A stretch of DNA of 36,966 nt, taken from NCBI GenBank assembly GCA_001783065.1, contig MFQN01000009.1:1-36966 (forward strand), written 5' to 3'. Position 1 is the stretch's first letter. The number at the start of each line of letters is the position of its first letter. Both the position numbers and the translations under genes were made by a program. The notes under the pieces were generated by a model that had not been told where the DNA came from, did no database searches, and saw nothing but the letters and a program-made list of their open reading frames with translations. Shown one piece after another: positions 3,615 through 31,961 of the stretch. The DNA comes from Candidatus Magasanikbacteria bacterium RIFCSPLOWO2_12_FULL_43_12 (lineage in GTDB: Bacteria > Patescibacteriota > Patescibacteriia > Magasanikbacterales > UBA922).

Positions 3615-4556
3615 ATGTCCATTTTGATCTCCGGCTCACTCGCGTATGATTACGTGATGGATTTTCCGGATAGTTTTAAAAACCACATTTTACCCGACCA
3701 GATTCATATTTTGAATGTCAGTTTTGTCGTGGATAAATTAAACAAGAATTTTGGCGGATGCGCCGGCAACATCGCTTATACCATGAAACTTTTGGGCGGG
3801 GAGCCGTTGATTTTGGGCGCGTTGGGTAAAGACGCGTCGGATTATTTGAAACATTTTAAAAATGTCGGGATAGAAACTTCGCATATAAAAACAGTGGAAG
3901 ATAAGTTTACCGCTTCGGCTCATATTACCACTGATAAAGACGACAATCAGATTATCGCGTTTTATAGCGGAGCTGGTGAGGACGCGGTTGGTTTGTCAGT
4001 GGATGGCGCGAAAGATAAAATTGATTTCGCGTTGATTACTCCGACGAAGAAAGAAGCCATGATAAAACACGCCAAAGAGTGCTACGAACAAAAAATTCCG
4101 TTTGTGTTTGACCCCTCGCACCAACTCACCGCTTTTACGCCGCAGGAATTGATGATGATAATCGGCCAGGCGAAATTTTATGTTGCAAATGATTATGAAA
4201 TGAAATTGACGCAAGAGAAGACCGGCTGGGATATGAAAGAATTGTTAAATCATGTTGAAGTCGTTATCACAACTCTTGGCGAGCACGGTTCTATAATAAC
4301 AACAAAAGAGGGGATTATTGAGATTGGTGTCTGTCCGCCGCGTTCAGTTGATGATCCAACCGGCGCCGGCGACGCGTATCGCGCCGGATTCTTTTTCGCT
4401 TACGCCAATGGGTTAAATTTAAAAACCTGCGGCCAAGTCGGCGCTGTCGCCGCGACCTATGCTGTGGAAAATTACGGCACGCAGAACCATCGGTTTGTAA
4501 GGAGTGAATTTGAGGAGAGATACGAGGGGGCGTTTGGAGATAAATTACAATACTAA
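3615..4556 (+). CDS. PfkB-family kinase, probably adenosine kinase
   Basis: This ribokinase-fold sugar or nucleoside kinase has 313 residues. Visible are the N-terminal substrate motif NFGGCAGNIAYT (45-56) and the C-terminal PfkB signature DDPTGAGDAYRAGF (246-259), in which the GAGD Asp (253) is the catalytic base and the glycines form the anion hole. The family covers adenosine, ribose, fructose and other substrates, and the sequence alone does not decide. Adenosine is favoured because S-adenosylhomocysteine hydrolase, which releases adenosine, is two genes downstream on the same strand. The two enzymes together would keep methylation running by removing an inhibitory product. No Shine-Dalgarno precedes the ATG. 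A TTGAAA/TAGAAT promoter (3439-3466) is upstream, with a palindromic repeat in the leader. Confidence 0.85.
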   Translation: MSILISGSLAYDYVMDFPDSFKNHILPDQIHILNVSFVVDKLNKNFGGCAGNIAYTMKLLGGEPLILGALGKDASDYLKHFKNVGIETSHIKTVEDKFTASAHITTDKDDNQIIAFYSGAGEDAVGLSVDGAKDKIDFALITPTKKEAMIKHAKECYEQKIPFVFDPSHQLTAFTPQELMMIIGQAKFYVANDYEMKLTQEKTGWDMKELLNHVEVVITTLGEHGSIITTKEGIIEIGVCPPRSVDDPTGAGDAYRAGFFFAYANGLNLKTCGQVGAVAATYAVENYGTQNHRFVRSEFEERYEGAFGDKLQY

Positions 4557-4651
4557 TATACGAATAGAGTACTAATGATACTAATGGATACGAATATTTG
4601 CATCAAAGGGTATTAGTATCCATTAGTATCATTAGTAAATTAGTATATTGG
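4553..4651. repeat. Head-to-head short-period array ATACTAATG, long hairpin
   Basis: The arms at 4570-4591 and 4616-4637 are perfectly complementary over 22 bp. The stem continues inward five more pairs past one mismatch, leaving a loop near 4597-4610. Each arm is built from 9-bp units of the ATACTAATG type, and further partly complementary units lie outside the core. It occupies nearly all of the kinase-antiporter spacer and could act as a transcription attenuator or mRNA stabiliser (inference). Confidence 0.85.
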
Positions 4652-4664
4652 TATATTTAATTTT

Positions 4665-5621
4665 ATGTTTTTAGCGATTTTTCTATTTATTATTGGTTTG
4701 GCGGTTTTAGTCGCCGGCGCGGAATTTTTGGTGCGCGGAGCGTCATCGTTAGCGCAAAAATGGGGCGTGCCGGCGATTGTAATTGGTTTGACGATTGTGG
4801 CTTTTGGCACTTCGATGCCGGAATTAGTGGTTAATCTTTTTTCCGCCTTTCGCGGCGCGACTGATATTGCCATTGGCAATGTTATTGGCAGTAACACCGC
4901 GAACATCTTGCTTATTTTGGGTATAACGGCGCTGATTTATCCATTGTCAGTCAAAAAAAATACAACTTGGAAAGAGATTCCTTTTGCTTTATTGGCGGTA
5001 GTTTTGGTGTTTATCATGGGCAACGACCGCTTGTTTGACGGCGTGGATTTTAACGCTCTCACTCGCACCGATGGTTTGGCTCTGATTGCTTTTTTGGGAA
5101 TTTTTATGTTTTACATTGTAAGTTTGGCGCGGCAGGGAGAGGCGAGTGAAGAAAAAGCGCGGGTTTATTCTACCTGGTTATCGGCCACATTTACTATTGG
5201 CGGATTGGCGGCGCTATTTGTTGGCGGTAAAATTTTGGTGGATAACGCGGTCATCCTGGCAAGGTTGGCCGGAATGTCGGAAGTTTTAATCGGTTTAACA
5301 ATTGTCGCGGTTGGCACTTCATTGCCGGAATTGGCCACTTCCGTGGTCGCCGTTATTCGCAAGCAAAATGATATCGCGGTCGGCAATATTGTCGGTTCAA
5401 ATATTTTTAATGTGTTTTGGATTTTGGGTTTGACCGGCACGATTTTGCCTCTGCCTTTCAACTCAATAATTAATTTTGATGTGTTGGTAAGCATAACCGC
5501 CACTCTATTGTTATTTTTATTTATGTTTATCGGCGCGCGCCGAAAATTGGATCGCTGGCAGGGCGCGATGTTTATATTATTGTACGCGGTTTATGTCGCG
5601 TATCTGGTTTATCGCGGTTGA
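4665..5621 (+). CDS. Calcium/sodium antiporter (CaCA family, YrbG-like)
   Basis: This integral membrane cation exchanger moves Ca2+ out against Na+ or H+. The 318 residues are almost wholly hydrophobic with about ten predicted membrane segments. They contain the two family alpha-repeats: [13 protein letters not shown] with GNVIGSN (41-81) and [13 protein letters not shown] with GNIVGSN (210-250). The conserved Glu in each PEL and the Asn in GSN are the ion-binding residues of the family, and the repeats have opposite membrane orientation. The length is typical of prokaryotic members. It starts 28 nt after the ATACTAATG hairpin, and its TGA stop (5619-5621) lies 17 nt before the ATG of ahcY, so it is probably co-transcribed with that gene. 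The ion cannot be fixed from sequence. Confidence 0.92.
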
Positions 5622-7045: not shown

Positions 7046-7049
7046 CGTT

Positions 7050-7090
7050 AAAGTCCGTAAAGTCCGAAAGTCTATAAAGTCTATAAAGTA
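7050..7090 (+). repeat. Short-period array AAAGTCCGT
   Basis: Five units of 8-9 bp (AAAGTCCGT, AAAGTCCG, AAAGTCTAT twice, AAAGTAG) follow the ahcY stop. The same unit recurs at 31856-31897 in a head-to-head arrangement. Confidence 0.85.
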
Positions 7091-7811: not shown

Positions 7812-7871
7812 ATTAAATTGTTAAATTGCTGTTTTCGTAGTTCGTAATTTCGTATCCTGTTCGTAAGTTCG
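7812..7871 (+). repeat. Short arrays TTAAATTG and TTCGTA
   Basis: Two TTAAATTG units (near 7812-7828) are followed by repeated TTCGTA(A/G) words (7834-7871). They fill the spacer between the NUDIX gene and the promoter of the DsbA-like gene. Confidence 0.6.
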
Positions 7872-7884
7872 CACATATATACTG

Positions 7885-8717: not shown

Positions 8718-8809
8718 GAAAATATTTACAGCCATCTGTCATTGCGAGCCGCAGCGAAGCAATCCAGTCGCACATGCATACGGAATAAAAAGAGCGGAAG
8801 TGTCCTGGC

Positions 8810-8846
8810 TGTCATTGTGAGCGACGAAGCGAAGCAATCCAGTCGC
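8810..8846 (+). repeat. TGTCATTG family repeat, half element
   Basis: A TGTCATTGTGAGCGACG...GAAGCAATCCAGTCGC half unit, 14 bp before the GIY-YIG start codon, in the same orientation as 8737-8771. Confidence 0.8.
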
Positions 8847-8859
8847 GCACATATTGGGT

Positions 8860-9150
8860 ATGATTAAAGATTATTATGTTTATATAATGGCAAATGACAG
8901 AAATGGCACGCTCTACACTGGCGTAACGAACAATTTGTTTCGCAGAGTATGGGAACATAAAGAGAAAATTTAAAAAAGGACGTTCACAGGTAAGTATGAT
9001 CTGGAAATGTTAGTTTTTTATGAAGGATACACAGACCCGAAGAACGCTATTATGAGGGAAAAACAAATTAAAACCGGTTCAAGAAAAAAGAAACTTGCGT
9101 TGATAGAAAAGATGAATCCAAAATGGAAAGATTTATCAGACGATTTTTGA
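8860..9150 (+). pseudogene. GIY-YIG endonuclease gene with in-frame stop
   Basis: The reading frame has 96 codons and shows the small UvrC-like GIY-YIG nuclease fold. The N-terminal strand YYVYIM stands for [11 protein letters not shown] for [12 protein letters not shown] supplies the catalytic Arg and His, and AIMREKQIK supplies the metal-binding Glu. Codon 38 is TAA (8971-8973), directly after HKEKI. The same frame continues without any shift through TFTGKYDLEMLVFYEGYTD to the TGA at 9148-9150, so a single nonsense substitution explains the break. Stop-codon reassignment is unlikely because TAA ends other genes normally here. Family members are single-domain nucleases of about 80-100 residues with unclear roles. 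It is bracketed by inverted copies of the TGTCATTGCGAG repeat. Confidence 0.85.
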
Positions 9151-9214
9151 ATGATTGGATTGCGGCGACTGGATTGCTTCGCTGCGGCTCGCAATGACAA
9201 ACGACTGGATTACA

Positions 9215-11252: not shown

Positions 11253-14093
11253 TTGTTAAAATTTGTGAATAGCATCAAAATCATCAACTCTCGGGTGCAT
11301 AATCTGAAGAATGTTTCGCTCGAGATTCCAAAAAATAAACTTACGGTAATCACAGGACTTTCCGGCTCGGGAAAGTCCTCTTTGGCTTTTGACACGATTT
11401 ACGCCGAGGGGCAGAGACGGTATGCCGAGAGCTTGTCAGCCTACGCGAGGAGATTTATGGAATTGCAGGATAGGCCGGATGTTGACGAGATTAGAGGTTT
11501 GTCGCCGACCATCGCGATTGACCAGCGGTCGGTTTTGCAGAATCCGCGTTCAACAGTCGGCACAATTACGGAAATCTACGACCATTTGCGTTTGTTGTTC
11601 GCCCGGCTCGGCACGCAATATTGTCCTGAATGCGGTATCGCGGTTCGCGCGCATTCAATCGGCGAAATTGTTGAAGAAGTAAGAAAAATCGGCAGGCGGT
11701 CAAACGCTTTGCTAATTCTTTCGCCATTGATTCAAGATGGACAGATTAAATTGAAAGAATTATTATCGCGTTTGGAGCAAGCCGGCGCTGAAGAGGCGCG
11801 GGTTAATGGCATGGTGATGAAATTGATCGAGGTTAGTAAATTTAAATTTGAACCGCAGAAAAAATATACGGTGGAATTGTTGGCCGGCAGAGTTTCTGAC
11901 ATTAAAAAACAAGACTTCGCCGCGATAGTTGATAAGGCGATTGATTTATCAAACGGCGATGCGGTTATCTGCGATGAGACGGAAGGCGAGGATTATATTT
12001 TTTCCACTAACGCGTTTTGTCGGCAATGCGGCAAGAGATTTGACCCAATTGAGCCGCGGAGTTTTAGTTTTAACAGCCCTTATGGCGCCTGTCCGCGCTG
12101 TACCGGCCTCGGCATTACTTTGGAAGTTGATCCGGAGCTGGTTATTCCCAATCCGCGCTTGACTTTGGCCGAAGGCGCGATTCAGCCCTGGACCAGAATC
12201 GTCGGCAATCATGGCCATTATCAAAAACTTTTGGCGGAAGTGGCGAGGGCGCATAATTTTTCTTTAAATACTCCGGCAAAAGACTTAACCAAAGACGTGA
12301 TGGATGTTTTGTTTTATGGCACTGACGGAGAGGAGTATGAAGTCGCGGGCAAAAAAGCGCAGTTTGAAGGGATTATTCCGAATTTGACCCAGCGGCATTT
12401 TGAAACCGATTCTGAATATGTCAGAAAAGAGATAGAGCAATATATGCATGAGAGGGTTTGTTCTGTGTGCAAAGGAAAGCGTTTGCGCACAGAATCTCTG
12501 TTTGTAAAAATTGACGACCATTCTGTCGCAGATTTGGCGGAAATGAGCGCGGAAGAGGCAGGTTTGTTTTTTAAGACTTGGTTGACAGCGAAAAAAAGCG
12601 CAAGCAAACAATTTAGCAAGAACGAGTTGATGGTGGCCGCGCCGATTATTAGAGAAATTGATAAGCGGTTGGAGGATTTGTTAAGGGTTGGTCTGTATTA
12701 TTTATCACTTGATCGTTCAATCAACACATTGTCCGGCGGCGAAGCGCAGAGAGTCAGATTATCCACCCAGCTTTCTACCGGTTTAACTGGTGTGATTTAT
12801 ATTTTGGACGAGCCATCGGTTGGTTTGCATCCGCGCGATAATGACAAGTTGATAAGTACGCTGAAATTTTTGCGCGACCAAGATAATACTGTGATTGTGG
12901 TTGAGCATGACAAAGCCATGATTGAAGCGGCGGATTATGTGGTTGATGTCGGGCCTGGCGCGGGCGAGTACGGCGGAGAGATTGTCGCCAGCGGTACAGT
13001 TGGAGATATTAAACGAAGCGCGAAATCTTTAACCGGCCGTTATTTGTTAGGTAAAGAAACAATTTCCGCGCCTAAAAAACATCGCAAAGGCAGCGGCAAG
13101 ATCATCAGTATTATCGGCGCTAAAGCGTTTAATTTGAAAAATATTGATGTTGATATTCCATTAGGCAAATTAGTTTGCGTTACCGGCGTTTCTGGTTCCG
13201 GCAAGTCAACTTTGATCAGCGATATTCTCGGCAAATCATTAAACAAACATTTTTATCGCGCCAAAGATGAGCCGGCCGAACACAAAAAAGTCGTTGGCTT
13301 ATCAAATATTGATAAAGTGATTGTGATTGATCAAACCGCGATCGGTCGCACTCCTCGCTCCAATCCGGCAACTTATACCGGTGTGTTCAGCGCGATTCGC
13401 GACGTGTTTACCGCTGTGCCGGAAGCAAAAATGCGCAATTATGACGCCGGCAAATTTAGTTTTAATGTCAAAGGCGGAGGCCGATGCGAGGCCTGCGCCG
13501 GAGAAGGCTATGTCCGCATTCCAATGCAATTTTTATCAGATGTGTTTGTGGAATGCGCCGAATGCCAAGGCAAGCGATACAACAAAGAAGCGTTGGAAGT
13601 GCATTATCATGGCAGAAATATCGCTGATGTTCTCGGTATGGCGGTAGAAGAAGCGTGTCCGTTTTTCCGCGATGTGCCGGCGATTGCCGATAAATTGAAG
13701 ATTCTACGCGATGTCGGTTTGGGTTATGTTCATCTTGGCCAGTCCGCCACCACTCTTTCCGGCGGTGAAGCCCAGCGCGTTAAATTGGCGACCGAGCTTG
13801 CTCGCCGCGCCACCGGCCGCACTTTATATATTTTAGACGAGCCGACGACCGGTTTGCATTTTGAAGATATTCGCCGTTTGTTGGAAGTTTTGAATCAATT
13901 AGTGGAAAAGGGCAACACGGTTTTAATTATTGAACACAATTTAGATGTAATTAAATGCGCGGATTGGATCATTGATCTGGGCCCGGAAGGCGGCCGCCGC
14001 GGCGGTGAAATCGTCGCCCAAGGCACGCCGGCGGATGTGGCGAAGGTAAAGAGAAGCTATACGGGACAGTATCTGAAGAGATTGTTGAATTAG
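11253..14093 (+). CDS. uvrA: Excinuclease ABC subunit A
   Basis: This is the DNA-damage recognition ATPase of nucleotide excision repair, acting as a dimer with UvrB. The 946 residues are standard. The first ABC module has Walker A GLSGSGKS (35-42), a zinc finger CRQC...CPRC (about 255-282), signature [12 protein letters not shown] (about 492) and Walker B with [11 protein letters not shown]. The second has GVSGSGKS (about 645), zinc finger CEAC...CAEC (about 743-770), [12 protein letters not shown] (about 835) and [11 protein letters not shown]. All catalytic elements are intact. The start is TTG at 11253, directly after the stop of the preceding gene; GTG at 11265 is an alternative. Translation by re-initiation is likely. 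A palindrome plus T-run terminator follows at 14110. No uvrB or uvrC is in the window. Confidence 0.97.
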
Positions 14094-15583
14094 GGATTTA
14101 ATTTTGTAGAGACGCATTGCAATGCGTCTTTTTTATTTTCATTATGCGGTATGGCGGCCAACATCGCCGGCAGAAGCCAAAACAACATCGCCAGATCGTT
14201 TTTGATGTATGGCGAATCCACTAGACCAGCAACGAGGATTATCGCCAAACTGCTTAATATACATAAATTGAAAATTGAAAAATTTTTGAATTGTTTGAAA
14301 ATTGAAAATTGAAAATTGAAAATTGCGAATATGATTAACATAAATCCAATCAATCCCGCCAATCCAGCATTCACCCACATTGTCAAAAATATATTATGCG
14401 GATGATGAAAAATTTCTATGCCCTCGCCATTGACGGTCGTGTGATAGGGTTTGATTTTATCTTGGTAAGAAGCGAGGCCCGCGCCCCAGATAGGATTATC
14501 TTTTAGAAATTGCCAAGTTTCGCTCCAAATTGCCAGACGGATTTGGCCGGAGCGGTTCTGAAATAGTAATTCTTGTTTGATTGGATTGTTTGCGGGGAGG
14601 CTTACGAGGCTCACAAGACCGACGAGGCTTACGAGGCAGGCGATAAGGCGAGTTTTTTTATTGTAAAAAAAGAGAAAAAATAATAGACCGGCTACGAGGC
14701 CGACGAGAGCGCCAGTGGAGCGAGCGTAATAAATTGCGAGCGGCGAAGATACAAGATACAAGATACAAATAATTTTTAAATTCCAATTTTCAAATATCCA
14801 AGCTTTTATTTTTTGATTTATTTTTTTGTATTTATTTGTTTCTTGTTTCTTGTTTTTTAAAATTAAATATAACGCCAGCGGCCAAATGGGGGCGAGAAAA
14901 AGTCCGACTGCATTCGGAAATCCATACCAAGCGGTAACACGATAAGTGTTTTGATTAGTCCAAAAGGCGTCAGGCACCATCCAGCCGGTAAAATGCTGGT
15001 AGATCGCAAGAATCGCAGTAATCAGACCAGAGAGAATTAACGCAAAAATTATAGTGAATTTTAGATTTGGGATTTTTGGATTTTGTTTGAAAATTGAAAA
15101 TTCCTGCCCGAGGCGGGTCCGCCTTGGGCGGAGAAAATTGAAAATTTTTTGAGTGTTAGAAGATGGTTGGGTGTTTAATGTTGTAATTAGGATAAAGAAT
15201 AGCAGTATTGGCTCAACATAGAATGCTTTCCATTCGCCGAGAGCCGATAGAGTGTTTGAAGAAGTGAATATAGAGACAGTCGCGGCGAGCAGAAAGAGGG
15301 TGGACGCGACAGCGAATAATTTATTGTGTTTGCCGATAGGAGATAAGAGATAGGAGATAAGAGATATTTTTTTGTAGTTTTTTATCAGTCTCACTGTCCA
15401 AGTTAAAAAAATAATCCACAACATCACTTCCAATAGCGTGGTCGGCAAGGAGCCGATGTTAAAACGGATAAGATAGCTTGGCAAGGCAAAGAAAAATAAG
15501 GCCAGGGCGATATCAAATCTGCGCCAAGACAAAAAAGCGAATAATAGGGCGTAAATTATTACCAACCAAATGAACATAAACAA
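14090..15583 (-). CDS. O-antigen ligase/polymerase family membrane protein
   Basis: These proteins join or polymerise surface glycans from lipid carriers at the outer face of the membrane. The 497 residues give about ten to twelve hydrophobic segments and one large extracytoplasmic loop containing WGAGLASYQ and the family motif HHPHNIFL (393-400), which includes the conserved His and Asn of Wzy_C/WaaL proteins. In a CPR cell without lipopolysaccharide the acceptor is unknown; it could be a wall polymer or glycoprotein. Low-complexity DNA is read in frame at several points: LISYLLSPI (75-83) from GAGATAA units, LRPRRTRLGQEF (151-162) from a GC hairpin, LVSLVGLVSLVSL from ACGAGGCTT units, and FNFQFSIFKQFKN from AAAATTG units. 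The C-terminus is read from the uvrA terminator. It is adjacent to a flippase gene on the same strand. Confidence 0.85.
   Translation of the reverse strand: MFMFIWLVIIYALLFAFLSWRRFDIALALFFFALPSYLIRFNIGSLPTTLLEVMLWIIFLTWTVRLIKNYKKISLISYLLSPIGKHNKLFAVASTLFLLAATVSIFTSSNTLSALGEWKAFYVEPILLFFILITTLNTQPSSNTQKIFNFLRPRRTRLGQEFSIFKQNPKIPNLKFTIIFALILSGLITAILAIYQHFTGWMVPDAFWTNQNTYRVTAWYGFPNAVGLFLAPIWPLALYLILKNKKQETNKYKKINQKIKAWIFENWNLKIICILYLVSSPLAIYYARSTGALVGLVAGLLFFLFFYNKKTRLIACLVSLVGLVSLVSLPANNPIKQELLFQNRSGQIRLAIWSETWQFLKDNPIWGAGLASYQDKIKPYHTTVNGEGIEIFHHPHNIFLTMWVNAGLAGLIGFMLIIFAIFNFQFSIFKQFKNFSIFNLCILSSLAIILVAGLVDSPYIKNDLAMLFWLLPAMLAAIPHNENKKDALQCVSTKLNP
14110..14134 (+). terminator. Intrinsic terminator after uvrA
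   Basis: AGACGCATTG is followed by its exact complement CAATGCGTCT (14110-14129) and T residues to 14134. It lies inside the 3' end of the convergent ligase gene, whose last codons (ALQCVSTK) are read from it. Confidence 0.88.
14265..14325. repeat. Short-period array AAAATTG inside the ligase gene
   Basis: Period-7 repeats of AAAATTG, including four consecutive units near 14298-14325, encode the FNFQFSIFKQFKNFSIF segment in frame. Similar words occur near 15090-15140 and 17752-17775. Confidence 0.8.
14604..14637. repeat. Period-9 array ACGAGGCTT inside the ligase gene
   Basis: Four 9-bp units (ACGAGGCTC, ACAAGACCG, ACGAGGCTT, ACGAGGC) encode the LVSLVGLVSLVSL stretch of a membrane segment. 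Confidence 0.7.
15107..15128. repeat. GC-rich hairpin repeat inside the ligase gene
   Basis: CCCGAGGCGG-GT-CCGCCTTGGG forms a 10-bp stem with one wobble. It is flanked on both sides by GAAAATTGAAAAT words, as if a small palindrome had landed in an AAAATTG array. It is in frame and encodes PRRTRLG. Confidence 0.75.
15335..15366. repeat. GAGATAA array inside the ligase gene
   Basis: Four period-7 units of GAGATA(A/G) encode SLISYLLSPI in frame. The same array occurs inside the Trm11-like gene (20243-20270) and in spacers at 30389-30481 and 36496-36524. Confidence 0.85.
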
Positions 15584-17734: not shown

Positions 17735-17751
17735 ATCACGATAATTTACAA

Positions 17752-17812
17752 TTTACAATTTTCAATTTTTAAACAATTTTTAATTTAACAATTAAACAAT
17801 TAAACAATTATC
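17752..17812. repeat. AT-rich short arrays TTTACAA and AACAATTA
   Basis: TTTACAA-type units (17752-17775) and three AACAATTA units (17788-17811), period 7-8, fill the spacer between the divergent flippase and SpoIID genes. Confidence 0.65.
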
Positions 17813-17861
17813 GCCATGAGTCATTATTCGTTAGTCTATCATTTTTTAGGTGGGAAATCAA

Positions 17862-31855: not shown

Positions 31856-31961
31856 AAAGTCCGTAAAGTCCGTAAAGTCTTTAAAGTCTGTAAAGTCGCG
31901 AATGCCGTCAATACTTTATGACTTTATGACTTTTTGACTTTATAGACTTTCAGACTTTTTT
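31856..31961. repeat. Head-to-head AAAGTCCGT array, hairpin
   Basis: The left arm consists of four full AAAGTCCGT-type units of exactly 9 bp plus a final AAAGTC (31856-31897). A spacer follows (31898-31912), then six ACTTTATG-type units of 8-9 bp (31913-31961), the inverted counterpart, ending in a T-run. It could work as a terminator or attenuator between miaB and miaA (inference). Confidence 0.85.

Follow-up and report, generated by a model that had tools for sequence, protein, structure and literature searches.

The window analysed here, a stretch of 36,966 nucleotides from Candidatus Magasanikbacteria bacterium RIFCSPLOWO2_12_FULL_43_12, carries a pfkB-family kinase gene followed on the same strand by a Na/Ca exchanger gene, and the junction of both genes is occupied by an inverted tandem array with the capacity to fold into a long hairpin (Table 1). 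A preliminary description of this DNA had placed the array at 4553-4651 and had built it from 9-bp units. The inverted tandem array itself was confirmed and contains 22 contiguous base pairs (4570-4591 with 4616-4637; folding window 4545-4662), whereas its limits were refined to about 4550-4654 and the strict 9-mer had to be replaced by a core, TACNAAT, which recurs at steps of 8-11 bp and is read inward from both hairpin ends. Folding furthermore unveiled seven additional pairs inside the 22-bp helix (4593-4599/4608-4614) and an outer helix of 12 bp (4550-4561/4643-4654). The predicted RNA fold has a free energy of -48.3 kcal/mol (z -9.5), the corresponding DNA fold reaches a z value of -9.3, and none of 200 shuffled sequences was as good. 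The pfkB stop codon TAA (4554-4556) falls within the first array unit.

No match to Rfam 15 at gathering score was obtained anywhere in the window. It had also been asked whether such hairpins mark transcript ends. Judged by sequence and fold, the hairpin has A+T-rich arms and lacks the T-tract after the stem that would be expected of an intrinsic terminator; with no covariation of its pairs and with related elements inside an operon (e.g. between rplX and rplE), a transcript-end role is unsupported rather than disproved.

Table 1 Coordinates, strand and supporting evidence of the genes, arms and arrays in the window.
Feature	Position	Strand	Evidence
pfkB-family kinase gene	3615..4556	+	PF00294, E 1e-39; ORF limits
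Left arm, end type A	4550..4595	+	Cores TACTAAT, TACGAAT, TACTAAT, TACTAAT, TACGAAT, inward; profile match 53 bits; conserved in 17 copies
Loop	4596..4611		Fold
Remnant GCATCAAAGGGTATTAG	4600..4616	+	Matches 3' end of GxxExxY ORF in G002:C55 (TTATCAAAGGGAATTAG, I-K-G-N-stop)
Right arm, end type B	4612..4654	-	Same cores as left arm, inverted; profile match 41.6 bits
Na/Ca exchanger gene	4665..5621	+	PF01699, E 3e-63; start 11 bp past element
Half-array, AAAGTCCGT type	7049..7089		Arms like those at C6; score 26, shuffled maximum 15
Half-array, TTCGTA units	7833..7880		Arms of GxxExxY element G000:C4:39361; arm score 39, shuffled maximum 18
TTGAAAA array inside Wzy ORF	14265..14325		Arms of four-helix-bundle element G000:C4:34482; arm score 33, shuffled maximum 24
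TTGAAAA-related array	17743..17810		Adjoins start of gene at 17816; arms of G000:C4:34482 element; score 37, shuffled maximum 26
Third hairpin, unit GAGATAA	30389..30481		Inverted partner within 60 bp
Second hairpin, unit AAAGTCCGT	31856..31961		Arms like four-helix-bundle gene element G000:C6:14224; score 29 against C6, 33 against G049:C1 (L237), shuffled maximum 17

Paired arrays and dispersed copies

The window's own genome (1.05 Mb) is denoted G000, and G001 and G002 are genomes of the same genus. As the preliminary description had stated, two further sites in the window (the second and third hairpin of Table 1) are inverted pairs as well. Its criterion, that paired arrays should exceed random placement, was examined in 346 kb of G000, using arrays of period 6-20 and inverted partners at a distance of up to 60 bp. 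Such a partner was found for 34 of 157 arrays, far above chance (mean 0.35, maximum 2 under random placement). The 346-kb sample was partly picked around copies of the TACTAATG type; the excess nevertheless holds, because other units make up about a dozen of the array sites on the list.

The 18-base pattern ATACTAATGATACTAATG (up to 2 mismatches) occurs at 32 sites in the 1.05-Mb genome, compared to a single site for the reversed control pattern. Most of these TACTAATG-type sites are arranged head to head, in about 13 pairs that measure about 105-120 bp, and several are single halves. About 20 dispersed copies are roughly 70-95% identical across the whole ~120 bp, and all 18 mapped copies lie outside long ORFs, mostly in narrow gaps separating adjacent genes and in many cases 0-20 bp away from a stop or start codon. 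The copies share a common loop and two types of arm, of which A contains AGAG and B does not; in three copies the loop is turned relative to the arms. Full-length relatives are distributed patchily and were found in 10 of 59 genomes of the family. On this sequence evidence the hairpin at 4550-4654 very probably belongs to a set of about twenty copies, dispersed in the genome, of a small mobile DNA element.

Gene-bearing form and relatives

A complete element of about 480 bp was identified in G002:C55 (L104, 849-1330), where a single ORF lies between facing arms at 849-892 and 1287-1330. This ORF encodes a GxxExxY protein of 132 aa (TIGR04256, 52.8 bits with a cut-off of 35; PF13366). The stop codon of the ORF is supplied by the array (TAG of ATTAGTA). 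The own genome contains two TACTAATG GxxExxY elements split by contig ends (C3 end/C32 start and C8 end/C29 end), and the neighbour genes of C3 and C32 match those of G002:C55. The 3' end of the ORF, TTATCAAAGGG, was recovered with at most 2 mismatches in 11 of 17 hairpin loops, exactly in two of them, and in 1% after loop shuffling. As the loops keep the last GxxExxY codons, the hairpin is best read as a non-autonomous, MITE-like internal-deletion derivative of a GxxExxY element.

Comparison with relatives revealed orthologous sites in G001 without the element at C10 (rplX-rplE junction) and at C4:69545, while at C18:13244 G001 retains only one end. At C4:35260 the place of the G000 hairpin is taken in G001 by a complete GxxExxY element, the unit of which differs (ATGCGAAAG), and at C7:57950 and C8:5508 the relatives carry other palindromic repeats. 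The window's own locus behaves alike: pfkB adjoins the exchanger with the array absent in G018, and other short-unit arrays follow pfkB in G001 and G002. Junctions that are unoccupied or carry other units in relatives are thus shared landing sites for different elements. A consistent target-site duplication was not found at the cleaner empty sites (C10 and C4:69545). A 26-bp remnant in G001:C2 proved to be an orthologous copy reduced by loss of most of its length.

The same plan around GxxExxY and four-helix-bundle genes

In the own genome, inverted arrays enclose the PF13366 matches, and the unit differs from one match to the next: ATAATCCGG on C33, TACGAAAT at C4:39361, CACTAAT at C4:48989 and the two TACTAATG elements described above. 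Likewise, six of seven matches to PF05635 (23S-IVP, four-helix-bundle) are bracketed. The seventh match lies below the cut-off beside a reverse transcriptase and has no arrays; reverse transcriptase fragments adjoin an Avd-like four-helix-bundle gene there (G000:C29:15617-16813). This locus is probably a diversity-generating retroelement with the four-helix-bundle gene encoding its Avd protein, for which the position beside a reverse transcriptase and the score below the cut-off would be expected. The arms of the IVP elements (69 loci, L171-L239 and others) consist of many different units, such as AGGCTTAC, GTTCACA, GTAAGTGT, CAAGTTG and AAAGTCTGT.

For 62 GxxExxY genes in relatives, upstream and downstream flanks were aligned as inverted repeats and gave a median score of 25, compared to 12 with exchanged partners; the corresponding medians were 22 and 12 for 69 four-helix-bundle genes, and control ORFs scored 11. 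Where control ORFs reached 20 or more, they were GxxExxY or IVP genes, a Y1 transposase gene, DUF559 genes or, in one instance, the neighbour of an IVP element. About a quarter of the GxxExxY genes in relatives have flank scores below 20, at or near background. The 95% limit of exchanged partners was exceeded by 24 of 41 named loci from Patescibacteria and by 16 of 22 from Bacteroidota. The pairing of gene and inverted arrays, as read from these sequences, is thus a plan found repeatedly, in several bacterial phyla. A GxxExxY gene is more often present in genomes that contain such hairpins (p 0.005, in an association that ignores phylogeny).

PF13366 matches were also observed inside longer open frames of 505-869 aa (G031:C14:22612, G007:C25:4047, G025:C30:8948, G007:C30:4961 and G031:C4:9759). 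Some of these domains are surrounded by inverted arrays, and the long frames possibly represent in-frame insertions of GxxExxY elements into genes. As a separate observation, three DUF559 (Vsr-like nuclease) genes on G000:C4 (L011; 1513-1884, 5209-5580 and 7080-7472) lie between G+C-rich, REP-like inverted repeats, one pair over 130 bp.

The arrays of the window were compared with the arms of such elements (Table 1). For the GAGATAA hairpin no significant gene partner was found (best arm score 18, shuffled maximum 19); the four-helix-bundle genes that rank highest as candidates (G000:C22:7721 and G011) lie within the shuffled range.

Proposed recognition core

The core was surveyed at 80 named loci of genomes in GTDB. 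Many arms at GxxExxY genes look alike across Patescibacteria, Bacteroidota and a few other phyla, with ACGAAT, ACTAAT, ACAAAT and ACAGAT recurring in short steps, and can be summarised as RCNRAW with a spacing of 7-11 bp (mode 9). Per 200 bp, RCNRAW occurs 5.8-7.5 times on the inward strand and 1.6-3.4 times on the other strand at GxxExxY genes, and IVP genes give 1.5 and control ORFs 2.4; these counts are descriptive, as the motif was defined after viewing the named loci, which are part of the same data, and the strand asymmetry and the IVP comparison serve as internal controls. Among GxxExxY pairs of less than 60% identity, protein distance tracks motif distance (rho 0.20, reached in 0 of 500 permutations).

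The bases of the core hardly vary among the 17 hairpin copies, to which the low divergence of these related copies adds, and the N position varies and thereby breaks pairs. Pairing covariation was absent from the 17 copies (score 0.035, below all 500 shuffles), and RNA structure was rejected as the conserved feature. A nearly invariant core with a free N and no covariation argues for a constraint on the word rather than on the stem; judged from the alignment, it looks as if a motif, as for a DNA-binding protein, were under constraint. Most likely the arrays are recognition sites for the element's own nuclease.

These results also bear on the earlier view that a shared architecture with unrelated units reflects a common generating process and not common descent of the unit. 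The common process is borne out insofar as each partnered unit type brackets its own small gene and occurs elsewhere as gene-less hairpins or half-arrays. Within one unit type, however, common descent does link the copies (about 20, ~70-95% identical), and between GxxExxY elements the units are not unrelated, as they share the core RCNRAW.

The GxxExxY protein

To our knowledge, no function has been established for the GxxExxY and four-helix-bundle (S23/IVP) proteins, both of which are multicopy families. A structural model of GxxExxY, built from 31 relatives, reached a pLDDT of 92 and displays the order helix-helix-strand-strand-strand-helix-strand. Its best match among solved structures is the Cas4-like SSO0001 (4ic1, Z 9.5), and the list of similar folds is dominated by PD-(D/E)XK nucleases. 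D65...E75-x-K77 are invariant and Q89...Y93 nearly or fully so. When PDB sequences were searched with the GxxExxY profile, the matches stayed weak (Pcc1 with E 0.001, endonuclease I with 0.44), and the comparison of folds told more. According to the model, GxxExxY is predicted to adopt a PD-(D/E)XK nuclease fold and may act as a nuclease. A transposase or recombinase domain was not found in GxxExxY.

Discussion

We consider the array, with a probability of about 0.8, a non-autonomous, MITE-like copy of a GxxExxY mobile element that ends in recognition arrays. A complete element would comprise an inward TACNAAT array, the GxxExxY gene and the same array inverted, and the hairpin copies would have lost most of the gene, its last codons staying in the loop. 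GxxExxY would bind the inward cores as tandem recognition sites and nick or cut where the arrays end, perhaps at the replication fork as the inverted arrays fold on single-stranded DNA. It would then move its own element and, in trans, the hairpins, in the manner proposed for RAYT and REPs. We regard the chances that GxxExxY itself is the mobilising protein as evenly balanced. No transposition event was observed, which speaks against it. Furthermore, we know of no catalytic site in the four-helix-bundle proteins of the same architecture; mobility could therefore depend on a shared host factor, which is the main rival. Reverse transcriptase was rejected in this role, being absent from three element-rich genomes (G011, G031 and G017).

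With odds somewhat below even, we propose that GxxExxY and IVP proteins are central to a superclass of minimal selfish elements, widespread and so far undescribed, with inverted arrays of short recognition cores as ends. The Cas4-like GxxExxY would then be the only mobility enzyme that these elements encode, and many bacterial intergenic arrays of 7-10 bp units that still lack an explanation would be its gene-less offspring.

The strong RNA folding of the hairpin, together with four-helix-bundle genes that belong to the 23S-IVP family and follow the same plan, is also what would be expected of selfish RNA hairpins similar to 23S rRNA intervening sequences (IVS), whose stem is cut from transcripts by RNase III, with the protein as a passenger and a host-encoded or RNA-based mobility. 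The Coxiella IVS, with 28-bp terminal inverted repeats, an S23 ORF and excision by RNase III, provides a precedent (PMC4990558). Nevertheless, this explanation is unlikely: the elements lie between protein genes and not in rRNA, the free core base breaks pairs so that pairing is not conserved, with covariation below that of every shuffle, the motif enrichment is strand-specific relative to the gene, and G011, G031 and G017 hold many elements with no RVT_1 match, so that reverse transcriptase is not needed.

The position of many copies next to start and stop codons (0-20 bp) would fit cis-regulatory arrays or arrays bound by a repair protein, domesticated by the host and controlling translation or transcription, a role proposed for heptamer repeats by MacGregor 2015 (PMC4679880). 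Insertions would, however, come to lie near starts and stops in tight intergenic spaces anyway. As the sites differ between closest relatives, with junctions empty or carrying other units, the neighbours seen share no obvious function, and the loop gene remnants and gene-bearing forms point to a mobile origin, we find domesticated arrays improbable.

Even less probable is mobilisation by Y1 (RAYT-like) transposases instead of GxxExxY. Two Y1_Tnp genes are present in the genome, but the one on C6 (G000:C6:5358-5702, L030) is bracketed by its own, different 93-bp near-perfect inverted repeat in a TIRtron-like unit, and no TACTAATG cluster was detected in the sequenced stretches examined around both genes. 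Y1/RAYT was rejected as partner gene, the repeats at Y1 genes being others or none of the TACTAATG type. Finally, replication slippage or template switching, by which arrays grow locally and become inverted through fold-back priming with no element involved, would explain the variable unit spacing and the half-arrays but is highly improbable, as a local origin cannot yield about 20 unlinked copies sharing both arm types and the loop, nor a gene between arms.

The GxxExxY elements resemble several known systems. REPtrons and TIRtrons combine RAYT/TIRYT tyrosine transposases with REP, BIME or REPIN repeats (PMC3733652, PMC3116915). There, too, a small gene lies between inverted repeats of its own, and palindromic copies devoid of the gene are numerous in intergenic positions, alone or in pairs; in our case this arrangement is represented by L104 849-1330 and by the dispersed copies in G000 and G002. 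The partner of the arms here is, however, GxxExxY (TIGR04256/PF13366) and not Y1/HUH (PF01797), so that the enzyme has a PD-(D/E)XK fold, or is a four-helix bundle in the sister elements, and the ends are core arrays at steps of 7-11 bp instead of a tagged short palindrome. With the MITEs of insertion sequences (reviewed in PMC10969869) the hairpins share their short, non-coding nature as internal-deletion derivatives, inverted ends, arms in common with a gene-bearing element and an ORF remnant in the loop. In contrast to MITEs, the parent gene between the arms is GxxExxY and no known transposase of the DDE or HUH type, and the ends are tandem arrays; at the empty sites C10 and C4:69545 no consistent target-site duplication was seen.

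The intervening sequences of 23S rRNA share inverted terminal repeats around a small ORF, and sister elements here encode the same protein family (S23/IVP); the hairpin, in turn, lies between pfkB and the Na/Ca exchanger gene and not in 23S rRNA, and its parent element encodes a protein with a nuclease fold. Short-unit arrays between genes, r-protein operons included, are also known as the intergenic TAACTGA heptamer repeats of Beggiatoaceae, for which a mobile binding protein was speculated (PMC4679880), and as heptameric repeats in Xanthomonas and Nostoc (PMC4692102). Those are direct repeats, as a rule with no inverted partner and with no gene partner identified. As described in these reports, none of the closest systems pairs this enzyme with these ends. 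A search of openly accessible journal papers returned no description of the pairing of GxxExxY gene and arrays, nor any paper on miniature inverted-repeat elements together with the Candidate Phyla Radiation; a passage on GxxExxY in one paper makes no mention of repeats.

Short-unit intergenic arrays have been noted for years with no source assigned to them. Linking them with GxxExxY and IVP would give both sides a testable function, the proteins as mobility or recognition proteins of minimal transposable elements, and the cross-phylum core RCNRAW makes the recognition prediction directly testable. Should a PD-(D/E)XK nuclease alone move DNA, this would be a transposition chemistry off the usual list, in less than 500 bp. 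The elements would also explain part of the variable intergenic DNA, and some of the assembly breaks, in the small genomes of Patescibacteria.

Other repeats in the window

The O-antigen ligase (Wzy) ORF at 14090-15583 contains at least four short-unit arrays (TTGAAAA, GAGGCTTAC, AAGATAC/TTGTTTC and GATAAGA) with the frame still open; these arrays are in-frame insertions in a coding gene. Two identical direct repeats of 68 bp occupy positions 1-136 at the contig start, possibly as an assembly edge effect. At 8866-9150 another nuclease gene, GIY-YIG endonuclease-like and with a broken frame, is enclosed by a dispersed repeat of its own, GTCATTGCGAGC...GCAATCCAG, in inverted copies at 8739-8845 and 9151-9200.
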